Shown in pieces: positions 4,282 through 15,048 of a DNA stretch of 15,048 nucleotides. How positions within the stretch are numbered: position 1 is the first letter of the stretch; the number at the start of each line of letters is the position of its first letter. The position numbers and the translations under genes are program-made. This DNA comes from Candidatus Omnitrophota bacterium (lineage in GTDB: Bacteria; Omnitrophota; Gorgyraeia; 2-02-FULL-51-18; JAGOUK01), in contig JAGVCY010000251.1 in the NCBI GenBank assembly GCA_020058965.1, forward strand, positions 1-15,048. The letters run 5' to 3'. A model generated the notes under the pieces. It worked only from the letters and a program-made list of their open reading frames with translations, made no database searches and was not told where the DNA came from.

Positions 4282-4677
4282 TTAGCGCTTGGGCTTAAAA
4301 TTTTTCTCGTCCGTTGACTGGCAGGGAACGCAGTATTCGGCAAAGGGCACGACCTTCAGACGCGACTTGTTGATGGGCTTGCTGCATTCCAGACAAATAC
4401 CGAAGGATTTGTCATCAATGCGCTTGAGGGCTTCATCAATTTTGTACAAAATTTCCTGGCCGTTGCCGGCAAGGTTCAGCGCGAACTCGCGATCGTAGTT
4501 GTCCGTCGCCTGATCGGCCATATGAAGGCTGTAGCCCGACAGATCCCCGGACGAGTCCTTGGTGGACTGATTCAGGTTGCCGCCCTTCACGCGATCGAGA
4601 CCGTCGTTTAATTTGAGTTGCAGGTCCTGCAGAGATTTTTTGAAGCCCTTGAGCTCCTGATCCGTCATGTGCTTCAT
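4282..4677 (-). CDS. TraR/DksA-family zinc-finger transcriptional regulator
   Basis: A 131-residue member of the DksA/TraR family, proteins that bind the secondary channel of RNA polymerase and modulate initiation, often with ppGpp. The N-terminal part (about 1-35 and 55-90) is predicted coiled coil. The C-terminal zinc finger has four cysteines, CLEC (95-98) and CVPC (116-119), followed by a basic tail. By eye the coiled-coil tip lacks E. coli DksA's DxxDxA spacing and reads ADQATD (54-59), so it may belong to a sister group with different activity. ATG 4677 overlaps the ileS stop as ATGA and has AAGGA 8 nt upstream (4686-4690), which favours it over the Met at residue 4. Position between ileS and lspA suggests co-expression with growth genes. 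Exact subfamily is unsure, so no symbol is given. Confidence 0.92.
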   Translation of the reverse strand: MKHMTDQELKGFKKSLQDLQLKLNDGLDRVKGGNLNQSTKDSSGDLSGYSLHMADQATDNYDREFALNLAGNGQEILYKIDEALKRIDDKSFGICLECSKPINKSRLKVVPFAEYCVPCQSTDEKNFKPKR

Positions 4678-7478
4678 CGCTTCAATCCTTTCACCGCGCC
4701 ATCACAGCGCAGGCATAAATCCGGGTGTTCAGCGCTTTGTCCCACATCGTCCCGCCAAATCCAGCATCGGGCGCACTTGGTTCCGCCCGATCGCTTCACT
4801 TGGATAACGGTGCCGCCCGCAGATTCGCGGACGCTGAGTTTAGAAACCAAAACTACGAGCGCCAGCAATTCGCGCTCCACAGTCAAAAAATTAAGATCCG
4901 GTCCCTTCGAAGTGTGCAATTCTACCTCAGCCTCGAGCGAATTTCCAATTTCTTTTTGCTCGCGTTTTTCTTCGAGCGCCTTCAGGATGCGGTCGCGCCA
5001 TTCCAACAGCGTGACCCACTTGTCTTCCAGTGCCGGATCTTTTTGGCGGATGGCCTCCGATGGCCATTCGCCATGATGCACGCTCGCTTCCCGGCCCTCG
5101 GCCGTCGGTAAAAAGCCCCAGGCTTCTTCCGCCGTGAACGGGAGAATGGGCGCCAACAACTTGATCAAAGCAACACAGATCTGATGCAGGGCCGTGCGGC
5201 AGGAGCGGCCGGACCGGGACGACGCAGGATCCGTGTAAAGCCGGTCTTTGAGGAGATCAAAATAAACCGCCGAGAGATCCTTCACACAAAATTGATACAT
5301 CACTTGATAAAAACGATGGAATTCGCAGGCGTCATAAGCCGCGGTCGCTTCTTCGGTCACCATCGCAAGCCGGGACAGCGCCCAGCGATCCGATTCCATC
5401 AATTCCACCGCGGCCAGCCCGTCCCGCTGCGGGTCAAATCCATGGAGATTACCCAGCATGAACCGCACGGTGTTCCGAAATTTTCGGTAGCTGTCAGCGA
5501 TCCGGTCAAAAATATCCTTCGAAACGCGAATGTCTTCCGAATAATCGGAGGATGCGACCCAAAGCCGTAAAATATCGGCTCCGAGCTGCTTCATGATGAC
5601 CTCCGGCGCAACGACATTGCCGACGGACTTGGACATTTTGTGACCCTGCCCGTCCACGACAAATCCGTGCGTGAGCACCGACTTGAACGGTGCCTTGCCC
5701 TGCACCGCGCAGGACAACAGCAGCGATGATTGAAACCACCCGCGATGTTGATCACTGCCTTCCAGGTACATATCCACGGGATGACTTGCGTCCGATTTCA
5801 GCCGCCGTGCGCTTACGGCCCGCCAACTGGAGCCGGAGTCGATCCAAACATCGAGTGTGTCCGTACCCTTTTTGATCCCGGCCGACGGTGCCAGGCCAAG
5901 CCGCGCGGCCAGCACCGCGTCAGCTTCCGTGAACCAGACATTCGTCCCCTCTTTTTCAGCCACATCCGCAAACCGCCGCACCGTGGCCGCGTCCAAAATA
6001 CTTTTTCCGTCCGCGTCATAAAAAACGGGGATCGGCACGCCCCAAGTCCGTTGACGCGAAATGCACCAATCCGCCCGCGATCCCACGCTGCCCTCGATGC
6101 GGTTCCTGCCCCACGCGGGGATCCATTGAACCGTCGGGATCACATCGAGCGCTTGCTGCCTAAAAGCGTCGACGCGGATGAACCACTGCTTCACGGAACG
6201 GAAAATGATCGGAGTCTTGGACCGCCAGCAATGCGGGTAGCTGTGCGAATAAGGTTCGGCCGCGATGAGCGCGCCGCGCTCTCCGAGCAGGACGACGATC
6301 TGGGCGTTGGCTTCAAATACATTCACACCGACAAGGGTTGGAAGTCCGGCATCGGCCGTCAGGCGGCCGCGGTCGTCGACCGGAGAAAACGGAGGAAGGT
6401 TGTTTTTTTGGCCGAGAGCGTAGTCGTCCTGTCCGTGGCCCGGCGCGATGTGGACAAAACCCGTGCCGGATTCTGAGGTCACGAAGTCAGCGGTCAAGAT
6501 GCGGCCGCCGTGATCGGGTAAAAATGGATGCCGGTACCGGACGCCGCGCGATTCCAGCTCGCGGCCGTGAATGCTTTGAAGATGCTTGTAAGATTTTTTG
6601 GAAGCGCGCTCAAGCTCCGACAACCGGGCCCGCGCGATCAGCAGGATTTCGGATTCGTCCGCGATAAAGAGGTACTCCAGCTCCGGGTGGGCCGCGATGG
6701 CCAGATTTGCAGGCAGCGTCCAGGGCGTGGTCGTCCACGCGACCAAGCTCACGGGCGCCGACGCCGGCAGCCCTGCGCGGCGGCGCGCTTCGTCAGCCAG
6801 AATTTTTCCATGACCGGTTGTGTCCGAACCGTTGATCTCAAAACGCACAAAAACCGCCGTGTCGGTCCGATCCTGATATTCAATTTCCGCTTCCGCGAGC
6901 GCGGTCTGGCAGCCGGTGCTCCAATAAACCGGTTTCAACCCCTGATACACCAGGCCTTTTTCGACCAAGTCCGCGAAGTTGCGTAAAATATCCGCTTCGT
7001 ATGCCGGACTCATGGTCAGATACGGTTCGTCCCACTCTCCCCACACACCGAGCCGTTTGAACTGCTCCCGCTGGATATCAATAAATTTTTGGGCGAAGTC
7101 CGCAGATTCGCGCCGTATGCGCGCGGGATTTTTATCTTCCGGCTTGAGGGTCTTCATCACCTGATGCTCGATCGGAAGGCCGTGACAATCCCAACCCGGG
7201 ATGTACGGCGCGTCAAAGCCGCGCATCGTCTTGTACCGGACGATGAAGTCCTTGAGCGTCTTGTTGAGCACATGCCCCAGATGAATTTCGCCGTTGGCGA
7301 AAGGAGGGCCGTCGTGAAGCACAAAGCGCGGGCGGTTTTGCACCTTTTCGCGAAGCGCGCGGTAGGTTCCGGCATTTTTCCAGCGGTCGAGAATTTCTTT
7401 TTCGCGATTGGGCAGATCCGCCTTCATCGGGAAGTCAGTCTTCGGAAGATTCAGCGTGTCTTTGTAATTGACGCTCAT
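4674..7478 (-). CDS. ileS: Isoleucyl-tRNA synthetase
   Basis: IleRS charges tRNA-Ile and hydrolyses mischarged valine. The 934-residue length is normal for bacterial type IleRS. In order: the class I HIGH motif as HLGH (66-69) within GPPFANGEIHLGHVLNKTLKD; GWDCHGLPIE (95-104); the editing domain with VAWTTTPWTLPANLA (246-260) and FVHIAPGHGQDD (341-352); DVWIDSGSSW (543-552); EGSDQHRGWFQSS (573-585); KMSKS (614-618); the anticodon-binding domain; and a C-terminal zinc finger with CARC (902-905) and CLRC (922-925). It is thus complete. ATG 7478 lies 26 nt after yggT and has no Shine-Dalgarno sequence; TAGAAT, a good -10 hexamer, sits 9 nt before it, but no matching -35 is visible. Its stop overlaps the next gene as ATGA. 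Confidence 0.98.
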   Translation of the reverse strand: MSVNYKDTLNLPKTDFPMKADLPNREKEILDRWKNAGTYRALREKVQNRPRFVLHDGPPFANGEIHLGHVLNKTLKDFIVRYKTMRGFDAPYIPGWDCHGLPIEHQVMKTLKPEDKNPARIRRESADFAQKFIDIQREQFKRLGVWGEWDEPYLTMSPAYEADILRNFADLVEKGLVYQGLKPVYWSTGCQTALAEAEIEYQDRTDTAVFVRFEINGSDTTGHGKILADEARRRAGLPASAPVSLVAWTTTPWTLPANLAIAAHPELEYLFIADESEILLIARARLSELERASKKSYKHLQSIHGRELESRGVRYRHPFLPDHGGRILTADFVTSESGTGFVHIAPGHGQDDYALGQKNNLPPFSPVDDRGRLTADAGLPTLVGVNVFEANAQIVVLLGERGALIAAEPYSHSYPHCWRSKTPIIFRSVKQWFIRVDAFRQQALDVIPTVQWIPAWGRNRIEGSVGSRADWCISRQRTWGVPIPVFYDADGKSILDAATVRRFADVAEKEGTNVWFTEADAVLAARLGLAPSAGIKKGTDTLDVWIDSGSSWRAVSARRLKSDASHPVDMYLEGSDQHRGWFQSSLLLSCAVQGKAPFKSVLTHGFVVDGQGHKMSKSVGNVVAPEVIMKQLGADILRLWVASSDYSEDIRVSKDIFDRIADSYRKFRNTVRFMLGNLHGFDPQRDGLAAVELMESDRWALSRLAMVTEEATAAYDACEFHRFYQVMYQFCVKDLSAVYFDLLKDRLYTDPASSRSGRSCRTALHQICVALIKLLAPILPFTAEEAWGFLPTAEGREASVHHGEWPSEAIRQKDPALEDKWVTLLEWRDRILKALEEKREQKEIGNSLEAEVELHTSKGPDLNFLTVERELLALVVLVSKLSVRESAGGTVIQVKRSGGTKCARCWIWRDDVGQSAEHPDLCLRCDGAVKGLKR

Positions 7479-7504: not shown

Positions 7505-7807
7505 CTAGCGAAGGCGGGCGGCGATTTCGAGCAGGGATTGGACGAGGAAGGCGCGGATAAAAATGATCGCGAGCATCGCCAGGAGCGGCGAAAGGTCGAT
7601 GCCTCCGACCCGTTCCGGCGGAACCAGGCGGCGCAGCGGTTCGAGCACCGGCTCCGTCGCCCGTTGAAGAAAAATAATAATGGGGTTGTAAGGGTCCGGG
7701 TTCACCCAGCTCACCAGGGCTCGAATGAGCAGGATCCACCAGTAAATATTGAGCAGCACATCCAGCACCTGCGCGACGGCTGACAAAAAATTAGCGACGA
7801 TGAACAT
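7505..7807 (-). CDS. YggT-family integral membrane protein
   Basis: A 100-residue inner-membrane protein of the YggT family (YlmG in cyanobacteria and Gram-positives). The family's role is not firmly established; it is linked to division, osmotic tolerance and organelle or nucleoid organisation in different hosts. Two clear hydrophobic segments (about 8-33 and 72-95) flank the conserved central motif: RALVSWVNPDP (29-39), then FLQRATEPVLEPLRR and LVPP, then IDLSPLLAMLAI. That is one complete YggT repeat. ATG 7807 overlaps the 3' end of proC by 17 nt and has AGGG stretches a few bases upstream, so translation is probably coupled. The yggS-proC-yggT order is conserved widely downstream of ftsZ, though ftsZ itself is missing here. 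Confidence 0.93.
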   Translation of the reverse strand: MFIVANFLSAVAQVLDVLLNIYWWILLIRALVSWVNPDPYNPIIIFLQRATEPVLEPLRRLVPPERVGGIDLSPLLAMLAIIFIRAFLVQSLLEIAARLR

Positions 7808-8642
7808 TGCCCTGTCCCTGTGTTGATAGTTCTCCGGCGCGGCGTTGCGCGGCGGTCATCGCTTCACGAACGACCTTTCCAAAACCCCTGCTGCGAAAAA
7901 CCTTGAGCGCCGCTTCCGTGGTTCCCCCCTTCGACGCCACGCGCGCAATCAGCGTATCCGGATCGTCCCCGCCGGCCACCATCATCTTGGCGCTTCCCAA
8001 AAAAGTTTGATACACGAGTTTTTTGGCGACATCGGATTTCATCCCAAGTTCGTACGCGGCCTCGATCATTTTTTCTGCGAGCAAAAAGCAATAGGCCGGT
8101 CCGGAACCCGAAACCGCCGTGACCAGGTCCATCATCGGCTCCTTCACTTCCACCGCGGATCCGATCGCCTTTAAAATGAGCTCCGTAATTTGCCGGTGGC
8201 GCGCCGTGGACCCTGAGCCAAGCGCATAAGCCGAAATACCCTCACCGATCAGCGCGGGCAGGTTGGGCATCACGCGGACCACGGGGTTTTTGTCTTTAAG
8301 ATGTTTTTGGATGCGGGCAATGGGCACGCCTGCGGCGATGGAGATGATGAGCGCCGATTCAGGGAGAGCGGAGGACAGGTCATCGACGACCGAATCGAGG
8401 ACCTGGGGCTTGACGGCCAGGATCACCGCGTCCGCCACACTGGCCGCCTGCCTATTGGACTTGGCGATTTTAACGCCCAAATCTCGCTTGAGCGCCTGCG
8501 CTTTTTTAGCGTCCGAATCCGTGATGTGGAGATTCTGAGGATAAAACGACGCCTCCACCAGCCCGCGGATGATGCTGGCGCCCATATTTCCGCATCCGAT
8601 GACGGCTACTTTGAGATTTTTTGGAACAACGGTCTGTTTCAT
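7791..8642 (-). CDS. proC: Pyrroline-5-carboxylate reductase
   Basis: ProC reduces pyrroline-5-carboxylate to proline with NAD(P)H, the last step of proline synthesis. The 283-residue protein starts with a Rossmann fold, VAVIGCGNMG (12-21), continues with LAVKPQ (75-80), SIAAGVP (101-107) and VRVMPNLPALIGEG (122-135), and ends with the helical dimerisation domain containing the family signature: VSGSGPAYCFLLAEKM (177-192) and VASKGGTTEAAL (235-246). All substrate-binding motifs are present. ATG 8642 follows yggS by 33 nt; no Shine-Dalgarno sequence is seen. The end overlaps yggT by 17 nt. It belongs to the conserved group that trails division genes in many bacteria, although its enzymatic role has no direct link to division. 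Confidence 0.97.
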   Translation of the reverse strand: MKQTVVPKNLKVAVIGCGNMGASIIRGLVEASFYPQNLHITDSDAKKAQALKRDLGVKIAKSNRQAASVADAVILAVKPQVLDSVVDDLSSALPESALIISIAAGVPIARIQKHLKDKNPVVRVMPNLPALIGEGISAYALGSGSTARHRQITELILKAIGSAVEVKEPMMDLVTAVSGSGPAYCFLLAEKMIEAAYELGMKSDVAKKLVYQTFLGSAKMMVAGGDDPDTLIARVASKGGTTEAALKVFRSRGFGKVVREAMTAAQRRAGELSTQGQGNVHRR

Positions 8643-8675: not shown

Positions 8676-9383
8676 TTACATCCGCTCCGCAGCAGATGTC
8701 GGTCGAGTCCCAAAAATGGCGCTGCCGATACGGACCATCGTGCTGCCGGCAGCGATGGCTTCTTCGAGATCGGCGCTCATGCCCATCGAGAGCGTGTCCC
8801 AGGGAAGACCCGCGGCCTTGCCCTCTTCAAAGAGGTTTTTGAGACGGTTGAAGGAGCGGCGGATGAGCGCGCGGTCATCGGTGTTCGGCCCAATTCCCAT
8901 AAGGCCTCGGATTTTTAAATATTTAAATCTGCTCCAATCAACGGAGGAGATCAGTTCCTCAAGTTCCGAAATCTCAAACCCCGCTTTTGAGATTTCTCCC
9001 GAAATCTGCACTTCGATCAGCCCATCGCACTTTGCGCCCCGCGCGGCAAGAAGCTTTTCCGCTTTTTCCAATACTTCAAGCCGATCAAACGATTGCACCA
9101 TCGAAAAACATTCCAAAATCCGATTCAGCTTGTTGGTCTGTATCTGCCCCAAAAAATGCCAGTTCATCGGCTGCCCCCGCAGTTCGGCAATTTTGGTCTC
9201 CGCCTCCTGAAACCGATTCTCCCCAAAGTCCGTCAACCCCGCCGCCGCCGCCTCCCGCACCGACTCCACCGGAAAAGTCTTACAAACCGCCACCACTGCC
9301 ACTTCCGACCGCACCCGCCCCGCCGCCCGGCAAGCCACCCCAATCCTCTCCTCCACCCTTCTAAGATTTTCAGCAATCATCAT
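8676..9383 (-). CDS. yggS: YggS/PROSC-family pyridoxal phosphate homeostasis protein
   Basis: A 235-residue member of the YggS (PLPBP/PROSC) family, single-domain fold III proteins that bind pyridoxal 5'-phosphate and keep its level balanced; no enzyme reaction is established. The PLP lysine is Lys35 in VAVCKTFP. Further motifs are DFGENRFQEA (52-61), WHFLGQIQTNK (75-85), LMGIGPNT (161-168), LSMGMSADLEEAI (198-210) and the phosphate-binding VRIGSAIFG (217-225). Two consecutive ATG codons (9383 and 9380) are possible starts; the first follows a weak GATGAG. The gene lies after a 180-nt gap holding an inverted-repeat element, where ftsZ would be expected. In many bacteria yggS is the first gene after ftsZ or pgeF and is followed by sepF; here proC follows directly. 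Confidence 0.95.
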   Translation of the reverse strand: MMIAENLRRVEERIGVACRAAGRVRSEVAVVAVCKTFPVESVREAAAAGLTDFGENRFQEAETKIAELRGQPMNWHFLGQIQTNKLNRILECFSMVQSFDRLEVLEKAEKLLAARGAKCDGLIEVQISGEISKAGFEISELEELISSVDWSRFKYLKIRGLMGIGPNTDDRALIRRSFNRLKNLFEEGKAAGLPWDTLSMGMSADLEEAIAAGSTMVRIGSAIFGTRPTSAAERM

Positions 9384-9405
9384 ATTTTCTCATCTTCATT
9401 TAGTT

Positions 9406-9557
9406 TGAGGCGCACGCGGAGGACAGGAGTCATCGGAGGGCTTTTGCGTTGCAAGGCGTCCCCGCCGCAGCGACGCAATGGAGTTCGCGCGCCTAGTCTT
9501 AGACAGCGTGCGAACGGCTCTGCCCGCAGAGGACTCCTGTCCTCCGCGTGCGCCTCA
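9406..9557. repeat. 152-nt inverted-repeat element with perfect 26-bp arms between the ftsA-like gene and yggS
   Basis: The outer arms 9406-9431 and 9532-9557 are exact reverse complements over 26 bases. Inside the 100-nt centre are further hairpins: GTTCGCGCGC (9483-9492) pairs with GCGTGCGAAC (9506-9515) with one G-T mismatch, CTCTGC (9518-9523) pairs with GCAGAG (9526-9531), and TTGCGT (9444-9449) pairs with ACGCAA (9473-9478). The single strand could fold into a long branched stem. It starts 6 nt after the ftsA-like stop and ends 22 nt before yggS. No T-run follows on the minus strand, so it is not a standard intrinsic terminator. It looks like a non-coding palindromic repeat or a small non-autonomous mobile element; copies elsewhere are untested. 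Confidence 0.85.
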
Positions 9558-9563
9558 GCACGA

Positions 9564-10607
9564 CTAAAAATATTCTTCGACGAAAGACTGCGCCCGACTC
9601 TTCACGCTGTCAAAAATCGACATCCACTGAACCGTTCGTATCGGGATTCGTTTGGAGGTGGTCGTCAAAAGGGCGAGACCGACAAGTACCGAGTGGCGCT
9701 CCATCTCGAGCTTGGTTCCGGCCGCGAGCGATGAGCGAAGGGTCCAGCGGTTACCCCACGCCTGCCGCAGACTCTCGCCCCAAGAATCAGATTCGATCGC
9801 CTCTCCGGTTACAAAAACGGCGGTTTCGGGCGTAGGGGCACTTTTGTTTAAAAAATCAGCGAGCCGCTCCGCTTCCGCGGCGGCATAGCCATGCGGCACC
9901 AAAAAGGATTTGTATTCCTGAATCGCATAGCGCTCAAAAAGCACTTGATGACATGCTCGGGCGCCGGCCAAAATCACCACCGTTCGACGGGCCATCTCTT
10001 CAGGATTAAGGATCCCAAACACCCCCGCCAAGCCGGACGGAAAAAGCCGCTTGGCCTCATATCCGGCTCTTTCACAGACAAGCCGCAGGGTCTGGGCATG
10101 CGCCGAATCCGAAAAAAGCAAATGCATGACCACCGTTAGTTCCTTGCCGCAAATCCCGATCGGATTATGCAAAGAATCCATCCGGTCGATCAAAAAACCA
10201 GATTCCTTCTGATAAACCAGATGCTGGTCGATCGGTTCCAATGCCTGCATCGCGCGGGCTTTGGCTTCCCGGATATGCCGCGGCGCGAATTCCTGATCCG
10301 AACCGTCCTGAAACGATACTCCCCGGACCCGGACGCTCCGCAGCCCCGGGTCATCCAGCGATGCTGTAAGCTTATGAATCTTGAGCCCGCTTTGGCGGCG
10401 CGCTTCGCGGGCGGCAAACCAAATGCTGTCGGTGAGATTCGCCAAATGCCTGAAGGTTCCGTTTTCCATCCCGCGCGTCGGACGCTCAGCCACACCGAGA
10501 ACATCCACAAAGGGCGCCCGCAAACGAACCCGGACATGAGCCACCCGCGTACGGTGTCCGTTCAGTTCAAGCAGCGCCAGGGGTTGTGACCAAGACCACG
10601 AATTCAT
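9564..10607 (-). CDS. ftsA: Divergent FtsA-like protein lacking the ATP-binding motifs
   Basis: FtsA is an actin-like ATPase that anchors FtsZ to the membrane. This 347-residue product, shorter than the usual ~400, follows ftsQ and keeps recognisable parts: a region like the 1C (SHS2) domain at about 45-165, including FRHLANLTDSIWFAAREA, a PRHIREAKARAM helix and HNPIGICGKELTV (147-159); AGYEAKRLFPSGLAG (181-195); VFVTGEA (264-270), echoing the adenosine motif; and VLVGLAL (307-313). Both phosphate loops are lost: the DIGT position reads ELNG (14-17) and the DIGGGT position reads LAGARA (213-218). The C-terminus, WMSIFDSVKSRAQSFVEEYF, looks like the amphipathic membrane-targeting helix of FtsA. 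ATG 10607 is the earliest possible start (TAA directly precedes it) and has no Shine-Dalgarno sequence. It may be a pseudo-ATPase scaffold; other FtsA/PilM-type roles are possible. Confidence 0.72.
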   Translation of the reverse strand: MNSWSWSQPLALLELNGHRTRVAHVRVRLRAPFVDVLGVAERPTRGMENGTFRHLANLTDSIWFAAREARRQSGLKIHKLTASLDDPGLRSVRVRGVSFQDGSDQEFAPRHIREAKARAMQALEPIDQHLVYQKESGFLIDRMDSLHNPIGICGKELTVVMHLLFSDSAHAQTLRLVCERAGYEAKRLFPSGLAGVFGILNPEEMARRTVVILAGARACHQVLFERYAIQEYKSFLVPHGYAAAEAERLADFLNKSAPTPETAVFVTGEAIESDSWGESLRQAWGNRWTLRSSLAAGTKLEMERHSVLVGLALLTTTSKRIPIRTVQWMSIFDSVKSRAQSFVEEYF

Positions 10608-10731: not shown

Positions 10732-11571
10732 TCATCGGGGGCCGACGACGATGTCGTCGAAGCGAAGGTCGATGTAGCGGATTTTTAGAGGGCTCATGTC
10801 TTCGGGTTTGGTTTCAACATAGGCCGCGAGACGATCCAGTTTTTCGCTTAGCTTAGAAACCATTCGCTCTTCCATCGAACCCAGTCGCACCTCTATGTCC
10901 TGATCGACTCTCAGAATGAGATTCTTGGAGTCCGAAATATCAATTTGTGTGAGGTCGTGATTTTTGAGAATATTCCGTGTGTCGATAATGGCCGCCACAC
11001 GGATCGCCACCGACAAAAGATTAGACCGAACCTGGGATCCGACGGCAACTCCCCCCATCCCCTTTCCTTTTCCGGACGAAAGGCCGGTGATGATCGGCGA
11101 CCGCGCGTCGGGCTCTGTGCTGACGGCGAGGATCACGCCGGTGGTGTCGATCCAGTAAAGCTTGTCGAGCAGAAGCCGTGCGGCCGCCAGGCGGCGTCGC
11201 AAAAAAATGTCAATCCGGTTGGGGAGCTTGCGCCGGACCCTCACATCCTGAAACTCCGGATGAAACCGCCGGATGTGCCGCTCGATCTCCTGCAAGTCAA
11301 CCGCTGTCTGATTGATGTTGGGGCGAATTCCGGCAAATTGAAACGGATTCTGAACCGCAAGCACCCGGCGCGCGGTCAGATCAAACACCCCGACATCCCG
11401 TATGACAAAAAGTTGGGACTGCTCGGCAAAGGCAAGCGATCCGCCGATGAGGAGACCGAGCGCGCCGAACGAAAATAAAAATGGCAGCAATCCAAATACC
11501 GTGTTGAGCGTTTTGGATCGGCCGGAGCGGAGTGATTGGCGTTTTTCTTTAGGAGCTTGGGATTTAGCCAT
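10732..11571 (-). CDS. ftsQ: Cell division protein FtsQ
   Basis: FtsQ is a bitopic inner-membrane protein linking early and late divisome proteins through FtsB and FtsL. The 279-residue product has a basic cytoplasmic tail (1-22), one membrane helix (about 24-48), then a POTRA domain: LFVIRDVGVFDL (54-65) and a pattern running through the IERHIRRFHPEFQDVRVRRKLPNRI segment up to RRRLAAARL. The LYWIDTTGVIL segment and the later region up to LRVDQDIEVRLG match the beta domain of the FtsQ family; the LYWID-GVI pattern is characteristic. Identity rests on this architecture and on the position between ddl and ftsA. The ATG at 11571 overlaps the ddl stop by 8 nt. A 124-nt gap with an inverted repeat follows, the first break in the tightly packed cluster. 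Confidence 0.92.
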   Translation of the reverse strand: MAKSQAPKEKRQSLRSGRSKTLNTVFGLLPFLFSFGALGLLIGGSLAFAEQSQLFVIRDVGVFDLTARRVLAVQNPFQFAGIRPNINQTAVDLQEIERHIRRFHPEFQDVRVRRKLPNRIDIFLRRRLAAARLLLDKLYWIDTTGVILAVSTEPDARSPIITGLSSGKGKGMGGVAVGSQVRSNLLSVAIRVAAIIDTRNILKNHDLTQIDISDSKNLILRVDQDIEVRLGSMEERMVSKLSEKLDRLAAYVETKPEDMSPLKIRYIDLRFDDIVVGPR

Positions 11572-12490
11572 GGAATTTTACTTGTTTAAGCGATTCTTCC
11601 ATCATCATAACACAAAGGTCGGCGAACGGAATCCCATCACGAGCCGCCTCTTTGGGCAAAAGACTCGTCGCGGTCATCCCGGGGCTCGCGTTCACTTCTA
11701 GCGGAAAATCATCTTCAGCCGTTACGATGAGATCCACCCGGGAGTATCCGCCGCAACCCAAAGCGCGGTGCGCGCGCAGCGCGGATGCCCGGATCCGCTG
11801 CTGCCGCTCCTCGGATATATCGTCTGGAAAAACATAAAGCGTCCCGGCATTTGTGTATTTGGCGGCGTAATCATAAAAATCCCGTGCCGGCCGGATCTCG
11901 ATCGCCGGCAGCGCGCGGTCCCCGAGGATTCCGACGGCCATTTCGCGGCCGCTGATCTTAGATTCCACGATAATTTTATCATCCTCGGCAAATGCCGCAG
12001 CCAGTGCCGAGGGAAGGTCGTCAGATGCCCGAACCTGGCTCACTCCGATGGATGATCCCCCGCAGCACGGCTTCACAAAAATTGGATAATTAAATTCGTT
12101 CGGTCCCAGCGTCTCTCCGGTCCTCAAAACTTTCCAGCGGGGTTCGGACAACCCCGCCTTACGAAAGGCCTGTCTCGAAACCTCTTTGTCCATCGCCCGG
12201 CGGCAAGCCTCCGGGCCCGACCCGGTGTATGCGATCCCCGCCTTTTCAAGCGCCGACTGAATCTGCCCGTCCTCGCCGAACGCTCCATGCAGCGCAATAA
12301 ACACCAGATCGGCTCCCACGGCCTGAATTTGGCTGACCGCGTTTGTGTCGACATCCAAAAGCTGCGCAGCAAGACCTTTTGAGCGAAGGGCAGCGTGCAC
12401 GGCCGCTCCCGAACGAAGTGACACTTCCCGCTCGGACGAAACCCCGCCCGCAACCACCGCGATACGATAGCGGGCAAGATCCGCGCTCAT
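11564..12490 (-). CDS. ddl: D-alanine--D-alanine ligase
   Basis: Ddl joins two D-alanines with ATP to make the dipeptide that ends the peptidoglycan stem peptide. The 308-residue ATP-grasp enzyme shows VVAGGVSSEREVSLRSG (12-28) with the conserved Glu, ALHGAFGEDGQIQ (66-78), YTGSG (88-92), KPCCGGSSIGV (140-150), a FYDYAAKY loop (205-212) with the tyrosine typical of D-Ala rather than D-lactate ligases, and the metal- and ATP-binding RVDLIV and EVNASPGMT (251-256, 265-273). The last motif is usually EVNTLPGMT; the key Glu, Asn and Gly are kept. ATG 12490 overlaps the murB stop as ATGA, and the end overlaps ftsQ by 8 nt, so it is part of the murG-ftsQ operon. Confidence 0.97.
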   Translation of the reverse strand: MSADLARYRIAVVAGGVSSEREVSLRSGAAVHAALRSKGLAAQLLDVDTNAVSQIQAVGADLVFIALHGAFGEDGQIQSALEKAGIAYTGSGPEACRRAMDKEVSRQAFRKAGLSEPRWKVLRTGETLGPNEFNYPIFVKPCCGGSSIGVSQVRASDDLPSALAAAFAEDDKIIVESKISGREMAVGILGDRALPAIEIRPARDFYDYAAKYTNAGTLYVFPDDISEERQQRIRASALRAHRALGCGGYSRVDLIVTAEDDFPLEVNASPGMTATSLLPKEAARDGIPFADLCVMMMEESLKQVKFHG

Positions 12491-13392
12491 TTAAAAACCC
12501 TGATCTCGCGCCGCAGACGAACCCCAAATTTCTCAAAAACGGTTTTTTCCGCCAAATCCATCACCGCAGCAACATCTCCCGCGGTCGCGCCCCCATAATT
12601 CATCACAAAATTACCGTGCACCGTCGATACGCCCGCGCCGCCGATGCGGCATCCTTTGAGTCCTGCTTCGTCTATCAACCGGCCGGCCGATTTCTGTCCC
12701 TCAGGATTTGCGAACATGCAGCCGCAATTGGGGTTTTTTAAGTCTTGAGTCTTTTGCCGATATTCCTGATAGGTCGCGATATTGGCCCGCGTCACTTCAG
12801 GCGCGACGCGCGGAAAACCAAAGACCGCCTCCGTCACGATGCTTCCGCCCAGCGCGCTGGACCGATAGCCAAACCGAGCCGCCGCACGGTCAAATTTTAT
12901 GATACCTCCCAAAGAATCCACCCGGGTTCCTTCAATAAAATATCCATCCACCCAGCGCGATGAGCTTCCCGCGTTCATTGCCACCGCTCCCCCGACTTGC
13001 GCCGGAATCCCGTACAAGAATTCACACTCACCATAGCCCTGATCGATCAAATATTTTAGCAGCAGTCCAAGCGGCAAAGCCGCGCCGGCCCGCACCGTTC
13101 CATCCTCGCGCGCTTCCACGCCTCCGAACGCTGCGGCTCCTGGATCCAAATGGATCACCAGCCCCCGCACACCCTCGTCCGCCGCCAGCGCGTTGCTCCC
13201 TCCTCCCATCACCCGCCACGGAACTCCGGCCTCGCCCGCCAATTTTACGGCCCGCGCCAGCGCCGCCAAGTCCGACGGCTCGAACCACGCTTCGGCCGGC
13301 CCGCCGACCCGTATGCTGGTGTGACGCGACAAAGGCTCCTCCCGCTTCCATGCACCGGGACACTCCGCGCTCAATCGTTCAAACCAATTCAT
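12487..13392 (-). CDS. murB: UDP-N-acetylmuramate dehydrogenase (UDP-N-acetylenolpyruvoylglucosamine reductase)
   Basis: MurB is an FAD enzyme that reduces UDP-GlcNAc-enolpyruvate to UDP-MurNAc with NADPH. The 301 residues fit the shorter type II form. Seen are the FAD-binding segments HTSIRVGGPAEAWFEP (24-39), GGGSNALA (63-70), GIPAQVGGAVAMNAGS (128-143), then GYRSSALG (175-182) with the conserved Arg177, and NCGCMFANP (222-230), KSAGRLIDEAGLKG (234-247) and VSTVHGNFVMN (255-265). Position 225, where E. coli has the proton donor Ser229, is cysteine. Glu296 near the C-terminus fits the third catalytic residue. ATG 13392 overlaps murC by 14 nt; the stop overlaps ddl as ATGA. The assignment is firm. 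Confidence 0.97.
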   Translation of the reverse strand: MNWFERLSAECPGAWKREEPLSRHTSIRVGGPAEAWFEPSDLAALARAVKLAGEAGVPWRVMGGGSNALAADEGVRGLVIHLDPGAAAFGGVEAREDGTVRAGAALPLGLLLKYLIDQGYGECEFLYGIPAQVGGAVAMNAGSSSRWVDGYFIEGTRVDSLGGIIKFDRAAARFGYRSSALGGSIVTEAVFGFPRVAPEVTRANIATYQEYRQKTQDLKNPNCGCMFANPEGQKSAGRLIDEAGLKGCRIGGAGVSTVHGNFVMNYGGATAGDVAAVMDLAEKTVFEKFGVRLRREIRVFK

Positions 13393-14746
13393 GCGTGTAC
13401 GCGTCCTTCAATTCTTCGCACAGCCGTCCAATATCTCCCGCGCCCATGCACAATAGAATTCCTTTAAGATGAACCGCTTTCTTCAATTCCTGATGAAGCC
13501 GGTCCCTCGGGACATAACGAACTTCGCCGCCGCGCGCATCCCGGATCTGCCGCGCCAGCAATTCGCCGCTCACGCCCGCGATCGGACTCTCCGACGCGGC
13601 ATAAACATCCGTAATGATCACCTCGTCCGCATCGTTAAACGCCGTCGCGAATTCATCCGCCAAAGCCAGGGTACGCGAATACCGATGCGGCTGAAAAACC
13701 GCCGTAAGCTTCGACGGCTTAAAACTTCTAGCCGCGTTCAGTGTCACCCGGATCTCCGCTGGATGATGGGCGTAATCATCCACCAAAATAAAGTCCTTCC
13801 CTTTAAACCTGATATCAAAGCGACGCGATGCCCCGCGAAACGACTCCAGCGCCTTCGCCACGGCGCTCCAGGAGCAGCCGGATTCCAGCGCCAGCGCCGC
13901 CGCGCCCAGCGAATTAAGCACATTGTGAACCCCGGGCACTCCGAGCCTCAGTTCCCCAAGAACTCCCGTCGGTCCCCACACCGTGTAGCGGCTCCCGCCC
14001 GCCGTCAACTCGACCTGCGCCGCAAGGTACCGCGCATCCTCGCTAAATCCATAGCCGATCCCGCCCGCTTCCTTTAATAATTTTCGGGTTTGCGGACATT
14101 CGGTGCAGCCGTACCACTTTCCGCCGCTCTTCAATTGCCGGGTGAAGCCCAAAAAAGTATTATATATTTCATCCAAATCCAAAAAATGATCCATGTGATC
14201 GCGATCGATGTTGGTCACGATGATCGCGTCAGGTTCGTAGGCCAAAAATGAGGAGTCGCTTTCGTCCGCCTCCAGCACCATCATTCCGCCGGACCCCATC
14301 ACCGCATTGCCGCCCAGCTCCGGCACCTTCGCGCCAACGATCACCGTCGGCATCCGTCCCTCCTCTTGAAAAATCCGTCCCAACATGGCGGTCGTTGTCG
14401 TTTTGCCATGCGTTCCCGAAACCGCGGCCGTCCACTGCCCCTGCGACAAAAATGCTAGCGCCTCCGACCGATGGTGAACGGCCAACCCGCGCCGCTTGGC
14501 CTCTTGAATTTCAGGATTATCTTCACGGATGGATGAGGAATACACGATGCATTCGGCCGTTCCGATATTTTTGGCATGGTGGCCGACATGAACCGCAATG
14601 CCTTGTTGATTGAGCGCCCGGGTCATGGCGTTTTCTTCCACATCCGAACCGGTCACGAGAAATCCCTTACGGGCCAGCATCTGGGCGATCGCGCTCATTC
14701 CGATCCCGCCGATCCCGATAAAATGATAGGACGCGTGGCGCTTCAT
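13379..14746 (-). CDS. murC: UDP-N-acetylmuramate--L-alanine ligase
   Basis: MurC adds the first stem-peptide residue, L-alanine, to UDP-MurNAc using ATP, in the cytoplasm. The 455-residue enzyme has the three Mur ligase domains. The N-terminal UDP-binding domain begins YHFIGIGGIGMSAIAQML (7-24) and GSDV. The ATP loop is SGTHGKTTTTAMLG (120-133), followed by EADESDSSFL and NIDRDHMDHF with the metal-binding histidine. The C-terminal domain carries DDYAHHPAEI and the FQPHRYSRT motif. ATG 14746 begins directly after the murG TAG stop, without any spacer, so translation is probably coupled; only a weak GGA is seen upstream. It overlaps murB by 14 nt. No fusion to Ddl, as occurs in Chlamydiae, is present. 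Confidence 0.98.
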   Translation of the reverse strand: MKRHASYHFIGIGGIGMSAIAQMLARKGFLVTGSDVEENAMTRALNQQGIAVHVGHHAKNIGTAECIVYSSSIREDNPEIQEAKRRGLAVHHRSEALAFLSQGQWTAAVSGTHGKTTTTAMLGRIFQEEGRMPTVIVGAKVPELGGNAVMGSGGMMVLEADESDSSFLAYEPDAIIVTNIDRDHMDHFLDLDEIYNTFLGFTRQLKSGGKWYGCTECPQTRKLLKEAGGIGYGFSEDARYLAAQVELTAGGSRYTVWGPTGVLGELRLGVPGVHNVLNSLGAAALALESGCSWSAVAKALESFRGASRRFDIRFKGKDFILVDDYAHHPAEIRVTLNAARSFKPSKLTAVFQPHRYSRTLALADEFATAFNDADEVIITDVYAASESPIAGVSGELLARQIRDARGGEVRYVPRDRLHQELKKAVHLKGILLCMGAGDIGRLCEELKDAYTHELV

Positions 14747-15048
14747 CTATGATTTTCCATCCAGATCTTCCACCAAATCCACGAGCGCGTTGGCGCCGTC
14801 TGTTTTTAAAACTTGCGAACAGCGCGCGCCCATTCCGCGAAGTGCGGCGGGATCCGCGGCGGCCTGATCGATCAGGCCCCTCATCTGATCGAGCGTGCAC
14901 TCCGCTTCTTCAAGCATCCAAGCCGCTTCCCCGTCCACCAACACCCGGGCGTTACGCACCTGATGCGCGTTGGCGTGCGGATACGGGATCAGAATCGCCG
15001 GTTTTGAAAAATAAGAAAGTTCATGCAAAGTTGCCGAGCCGGCGCGGC
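14747..15048 (-). CDS. murG: Undecaprenyldiphospho-muramoylpentapeptide beta-N-acetylglucosaminyltransferase MurG, C-terminal 99 residues (gene enters from the right edge)
   Basis: MurG is a peripheral inner-membrane glycosyltransferase that adds GlcNAc to lipid I to make lipid II. Only the C-terminal part of the second Rossmann domain is inside the window. It opens with RAGSATLHELSYFSKPAILI, the conserved donor-binding (S)RAG-TL-E motif, and continues with PYPHANAHQVRNARVL, whose His-Gln and Asn-Ala match the UDP-GlcNAc contact region of the family. The remaining residues form the C-terminal helices. The frame is open to the window edge, so no start is assigned inside. TAG at 14749-14747 is followed at once by the murC ATG. 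The neighbours murC and murB are the usual dcw partners. Confidence 0.95.
   Translation of the reverse strand, partial: RAGSATLHELSYFSKPAILIPYPHANAHQVRNARVLVDGEAAWMLEEAECTLDQMRGLIDQAAADPAALRGMGARCSQVLKTDGANALVDLVEDLDGKS

Follow-up and report, generated by a model that had tools for sequence, protein, structure and literature searches.

Candidatus Omnitrophota probably keep FtsA without FtsZ, and one order has a short FtsA predicted to lack the FtsZ-docking stretch

Bacterial division without FtsZ is an open question, and most work on it has dealt with Chlamydia and Planctomycetes, which have lost FtsA as well. An excerpt of PMC12283558 describes FtsZ as absent from Chlamydiae and Planctomycetes at phylum level and FtsA as gone with few exceptions; FtsK is kept in both, and Chlamydiae also keep most wall genes. 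In FtsZ-less Chlamydia, FtsK and MreB have leading roles (parts of PMC11975371 and PMC7029139). Where the pair is present, the last helix of FtsA binds the membrane and its subdomain 2B binds FtsZ (part of PMC9098913), and mutants in the ATP site of FtsA are mostly inactive (part of PMC5832921). Here we describe a stretch of 15,048 nucleotides (nt) from a metagenome-assembled genome of Candidatus Omnitrophota (contig JAGVCY010000251.1; the whole stretch is called the window), in which ftsA is followed by yggS with no ftsZ between them, and we compare it with relatives across the phylum.

The absence of FtsZ from Omnitrophota is already in print, in one figure legend: that of PMC8178401 counts Omnitrophica with those PVC phyla that have no FtsZ. 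It does not list FtsA as missing, nor does it describe the FtsA proteins. The relevant part of a 2016 review (PMC5147048) gives FtsZ in one of three Omnitrophica genomes (OLB16) and leaves the others open, and the main text of PMC10066038 has no word starting with 'Fts'. The 2025 survey excerpted above (PMC12283558) counts Omnitrophota among the phyla with highly conserved dcw genes. Our findings bear on this printed disagreement between the legend and the survey, as it stands in the excerpted texts.

A sequence-only reading of the window had proposed that ftsZ is missing from an otherwise preserved order, ftsQ-ftsA-X-yggS-proC-yggT-ileS. Open reading frames (ORFs) and Pfam matches confirmed both the order and the absence, and no ftsZ-like sequence was present in the 180 nt between ftsA and yggS. 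We then searched for FtsZ elsewhere with the tubulin/FtsZ profile PF00091, which had matches in 13 of 14 well-known genomes serving as a positive control. The profile had no match in the window's own assembly (G000; 1,680,464 bases in 307 contigs, 72% complete), nor in any of 59 genomes comprising this assembly and 58 relatives, 40 of which are of high quality, including the single-contig G038. In a draw of 384 genomes from across the phylum, two had a match (one of the 248 of high quality). Because this sample is almost without FtsZ, the 28% missing from our own assembly cannot explain the absence, and incompleteness was rejected as its cause. Loss of the ftsZ gene in the phylum is well supported.

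Neither of the two exceptions was convincing. Genome G305 carries one FtsZ (332 bits; cut-off 295) on a 3,659-base contig, where it adjoins an FKBP with an FKBP26 IF domain; we take that domain to be archaeal, so the contig is probably foreign. G219 and G305 also encode proteins of 427 and 420 residues with FtsZ scores of 50 and 53 bits, which match TubZ-like and Tubulin_2 models, and the match of the sole high-quality genome is of this TubZ-like kind. These two proteins (L002, 1012-2295; L003, 999-2261) have an N-terminus rich in lysine.

Named genomes drawn from a scan with IleS (at least 80 loci) gave a second view of the distribution. FtsZ was found in 15 of 30: all eight Verrucomicrobiota (one match partial, 3.0e-12), one of four Planctomycetota (weak, 5.7e-9), one of 12 genomes titled Omnitrophota (L075), Tritonobacter, Desantisbacteria, Sumerlaeia, an Elusimicrobiota and one further bacterium. 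The remaining 11 Omnitrophota gave no match, and neither did three Planctomycetota and one metagenome-assembled Nitrospiraceae genome. An IleS tree, from a quick search without bootstrap, united the 11 FtsZ-negative Omnitrophota in one fork (support 86), with L075 and an Elusimicrobiota just outside it, within a group of support 98. Since the window's assembly had no rpoB match, its placement in the phylum rests on relatives, here G002 of the same family. We built an RpoB tree from 20 of 26 genomes with a match, leaving out six with split or partial matches; the long branches of L066 and L075 are unsure in it. G002, G004 (same order), G029 and G049 (class), and G060 and G063 (phylum) formed one clade with the named Omnitrophota (99/97), separate from Verrucomicrobiota and Tritonobacter, and L075 lay outside Omnitrophota on a long branch. 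Judged by the RpoB of its kin, the window belongs to Candidatus Omnitrophota.

The window's lineage had been likened to Chlamydiae and Planctomycetes. The likeness holds for FtsZ, which is missing from the clade apart from G219, G305 and L075, but it fails for FtsA, which Omnitrophota retain beside ftsQ. Among 30 ftsA neighbourhoods, 28 had an ftsQ-like gene directly before ftsA. The gene after it, visible in 26, was yggS in eight (the window included), ribBA in 11 and another gene in seven; it was unseen in four. Examples of the yggS and ribBA calls were verified by Pfam. In a sister family (f2), ribBA and not yggS followed ftsA at all 11 loci (L006-L016; one checked by Pfam). Synteny with relatives showed that ftsA-yggS adjacency without ftsZ recurs, and in G002 the two genes are 2 nt apart, against 180 nt in the window. 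A scan of viral contigs for yggS gave no match.

Other division and wall genes were widely present. FtsK had matches in all 59 genomes (58 above the cut-off), and FtsW/RodA in 379 of 384 genomes from such a phylum-wide draw (247 of 248 of high quality). MreB was also matched in all 59, with G001, G009 and G054 weak enough for other actin-like proteins. The Mur genes of the window were recovered by Pfam, in agreement with the proposal that the cell wall is kept. Its mreB, previously described as intact, is a fragment of 229 residues truncated by the contig end, so that description cannot be claimed.

The FtsA of the window's order is short. One alignment used 26 FtsA ORFs out of 30, without L024 and L030, which contig ends truncate, and without L029 and L031, whose starts are over-long; a second took one sequence from each of 13 of the order's 16 genomes. 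All 13 were short, with about 60 residues fewer than the long forms, and the profile of the order skipped E. coli residues 237-314, a segment that includes R286, a subdomain 2B residue next to where the FtsZ tail docks. We take 237-314 to be most of subdomain 2B. By alignment, this subdomain with its FtsZ-tail site is missing from the order's FtsA, and the predicted loss is common to the order. The remaining fold is kept, including the inserted SHS2 (1C) domain, and resembles canonical FtsA (E. coli 7q6d, T. maritima 1e4f and 4a2a) also in a C-terminal amphipathic helix and an acidic-aromatic end: 28 of the 30 ORFs end in EYF or DYF, and the other two are contig-cut. Over the last 15 residues the mean hydrophobic moment was 0.39 for the order and 0.53 for the other sequences, against 0.24-0.25 for shuffled sequences and 0.61 for the E. 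coli helix, and this amphipathic segment is the predicted membrane helix. Seventeen columns are invariant in the order, among them G38, G46, D141, D144, P149, G151, G154, L157, G268, G310, Y346 and F347. PilM, the pilus actin-like adaptor, differs: FtsA structures score 28.4 to 33.8, and the gene context here is ftsQ-ftsA. No description of an FtsA without 2B was found in a literature search of titles and abstract openings, which left most subscription papers outside. Members of one family (f47) were seen with weak FtsA matches only (about 1e-9 to 1e-24); FtsA may be lost there or changed beyond recognition.

The window's FtsA also departs from the canonical protein at its nucleotide site. Its phosphate-1 residue is E, as in E. 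coli FtsA, but N stands where the next G would be, L replaces the phosphate-2 Asp, and the adenosine motif reads GE instead of GG. The phosphate-2 Asp is present in 10 of 13 sequences of the order and nine of 13 long forms, and the adenosine GG in none of 13 and nine of 13, respectively; nine of 11 order members outside the window's family keep D at both phosphate positions. The idea that lost ATP binding marks the window's family was weakened by the E of the E. coli protein and by four of 13 long forms without the phosphate-2 Asp. A weakening of predicted nucleotide binding may extend beyond the order. Among the proteins scored against the TIGR01174 equivalog (cut-off 175.85 bits), the window's (79) and L006 (109) fell below, and the long form L018 reached 218. 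The earlier description of this ftsA as degenerate was upheld.

We consider it likely that Candidatus Omnitrophota have an FtsZ-free divisome that keeps FtsA, and that the FtsA of the window's order lacks the FtsZ-docking stretch. That the cells divide without FtsZ we infer from gene content, which supports the earlier proposal of a lineage dividing in this way, although the loss is phylum-wide and not particular to the lineage. An ancestor of Omnitrophota would have lost ftsZ and retained the other division and wall genes. FtsA would then act as a membrane-bound scaffold that keeps FtsQ, FtsW and FtsK, the late machinery of the septal wall, in place with no tubulin ring; in the window's order it may be a simpler adaptor, no longer able to take FtsZ, and a dynamic polymer, if any, might come from MreB, as in Chlamydia. 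More tentatively, and at somewhat less than an even chance, we propose that FtsA organises this tubulin-free divisome and that one order's FtsA has shed its FtsZ-docking subdomain to become a plain adaptor between membrane and septal synthase. If true, the ancient FtsA-FtsZ pair has been broken up across a phylum, its actin-like member surviving the loss of the tubulin one. A large phylum with FtsA and the wall machinery but without FtsZ allows the roles of the two proteins to be told apart, and an order whose FtsA is without the docking stretch would show, as an experiment of nature, which functions FtsA has besides the tethering of FtsZ.

Several observations weigh against this explanation. 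The mode of division is read here from gene content, and our own assembly is incomplete. Three of the order's 16 genomes (G001, G010 and G011, all less than 82% complete) gave no FtsA match, and of 381 FtsA matches, about 64 (counted by eye) fell short of 1e-30 and could instead be PilM or MreB. In V. maritimus FtsA, the order's profile continued through residues 210-309 at low quality and rematched at 310-391, which makes the limits of the missing stretch approximate. The long FtsA of the class retains the 2B stretch despite the absence of FtsZ; loss of FtsZ therefore does not force loss of 2B, which suggests that outside this order 2B is still used in the class, for FtsA polymers or to bind nucleotide. 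L075 (JAMWBY010000053.1) is titled Candidatus Omnitrophota and has an FtsZ match of 2.7e-42; it falls outside the other Omnitrophota in both trees, with long branches. Its placement is doubtful, and it may be mislabelled or of another lineage. Finally, the window's IleS lay at the base of Verrucomicrobiota (approximate likelihood-ratio support, SH-aLRT, of 100 in the quick tree) and not among the named Omnitrophota, in disagreement with its family's RpoB, possibly through an old transfer.

The gap between ftsA and yggS had been read as the emptied seat of ftsZ. It does lack ftsZ, but it is filled by a dispersed repeat; with this repeat in the gap and the two genes 2 nt apart in G002, the 180 nt are not a vacated ftsZ place, and the spacer was rejected as a remnant of ftsZ. 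The repeat's 106-nt core is matched at 30 further places in the assembly (33 minus its own copy and its two inverted arms), several of these matches being partial and some perhaps halves of one copy. There are seven matches in G001, of the same genus, and none in nine other genomes searched. We looked at 22 copies, of which 20 were complete (14 from G000 and six from G001), leaving out 15 of the 30 other G000 matches and one of the seven in G001. Within the complete copies, the flanking 22 nt were complementary (mean 0.87, lowest 0.59; L243-L260), against a mean of 0.40 and a highest value of 0.73 in 380 comparisons across copies; three within-copy values did not exceed that highest value. Cores 92-94% alike carried unrelated arms (0.36-0.45), with the exception of one pair with cores 90% alike and arms at 0.68. 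Similar cores with unrelated arms indicate that the core moves and the arms do not travel with it, each copy sitting at the tip of its own palindrome.

Small dispersed bacterial repeats include miniature inverted-repeat transposable elements (MITE), REP/BIME, ERIC and RUP. The present repeat resembles them as a palindromic element of about 106 nt with many, mostly intergenic copies (three of 20 lay inside a mechanical ORF); its inverted ends and many dispersed copies are MITE-like, and the flanks seen were inverted repeats. It differs in that its copies lie within palindromes whose arms, of about 22 nt, do not travel with the core. Either the palindrome is made by inverted duplication at insertion, or a pre-existing palindrome is targeted. 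Insertion into ordinary terminator hairpins is not favoured: a scan (score of at least 14, loop below 40) of the window and 12 stretches holding copies found no free-standing hairpins in 64,716 bases of the assembly. Taken jointly with an FtsZ-free, FtsA-keeping divisome, it is quite probable that the 180-nt spacer arose later, by insertion of this genus-restricted repeat, and had no part in the loss of ftsZ.

An FtsZ might be present yet missed, in unassembled contigs or by divergence from the profile. Our genome is incomplete, and 384 genomes sample the phylum without exhausting it; however, the absence from all 40 high-quality genomes and the lone, TubZ-like match among 248, obtained with a profile that detected 13 of the 14 controls and all eight Verrucomicrobiota genomes, make this very improbable. 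Less credible still is a wrong join, in which the assembler bridged ftsA and yggS across the repeat and omitted an ftsZ between them. The core does recur in the assembly, and ten of its matches end within 10 bases of a contig end. Yet the window's two outer arms are a full match to one another and to none of the other copies examined, the adjacency recurs in relatives, most closely in G002, and no ftsZ occurs anywhere in the assembly. On the strength of the copy-specific arms and the adjacency in relatives we rejected a wrong join. Of the two outcomes that the sequence-only reading had named as fatal to its claim, an ftsZ elsewhere was not found in the assembly, nor was an assembly collapse at this place.

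The order's FtsA could instead be no longer a division protein, as a decaying or repurposed actin-like protein. The altered phosphate-2 and adenosine motifs of the window's FtsA, its low score against the ftsA cut-off and the three genomes of the order without a match would fit this. We regard it as unlikely, since all 13 sequences have an open frame that immediately follows an ftsQ-like gene, the last residues are shared with the long forms and 17 columns are invariant, none of which is expected under decay. A better, though still doubtful, prospect is that another filament replaced FtsZ outright, either MreB with RodZ as in Chlamydia or the TubZ-like proteins of G219 and G305. MreB is matched in every one of the 59 genomes (three weakly), and chlamydial MreB with RodZ is able to direct division in E. 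coli (part of PMC7029139). MreB is, however, equally present in FtsZ-bearing bacteria, and TubZ-like proteins occur in two of 384 genomes. Such a replacement is compatible with an FtsZ-free divisome that keeps FtsA, not exclusive of it.

Table 1. Coordinates of features in the 15,048-nt window
Feature	Position	Strand	Remark
Spacer between ftsA and yggS, without ftsZ	9384..9563		
Repeat core, 106 nt	9429..9534		30 other matches in assembly, 7 in G001
Outer arm, 23 nt, copy-specific	9406..9428		
Outer arm, complementary to 9406-9428	9535..9557		
ftsA, short FtsA (347 residues)	9564..10607	-	
Predicted FtsA C-terminal helix, residues 323-347, ending EYF	9567..9641	-	Low-confidence model
Approximate site (residues 237-246) of the stretch absent relative to long FtsA	9870..9899	-	About E. 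coli 237-314
ftsQ	10732..11571	-	PF03799 and PF08478
ddl	11564..12490	-	Pfam
murB	12487..13392	-	Pfam
murC (Mur ligase)	13379..14746	-	Pfam
murG, 3' part	14747..15046	-	PF04101
yggS	8676..9383	-	PF01168
proC	7791..8642	-	Pfam
yggT	7505..7807	-	Pfam
ileS	4674..7478	-	
mreB, 5' part, cut by contig end	3..689	-	PF06723

No known RNA family reached the gathering threshold in the window. By ORFs and Pfam, its minus strand reads murG (partial)-murC-murB-ddl-ftsQ-ftsA-[180 nt]-yggS-proC-yggT-ileS, and after ileS the order continues with a dksA-like gene, lspA, lgt, a pseudouridine synthase gene, aroA and the partial mreB.
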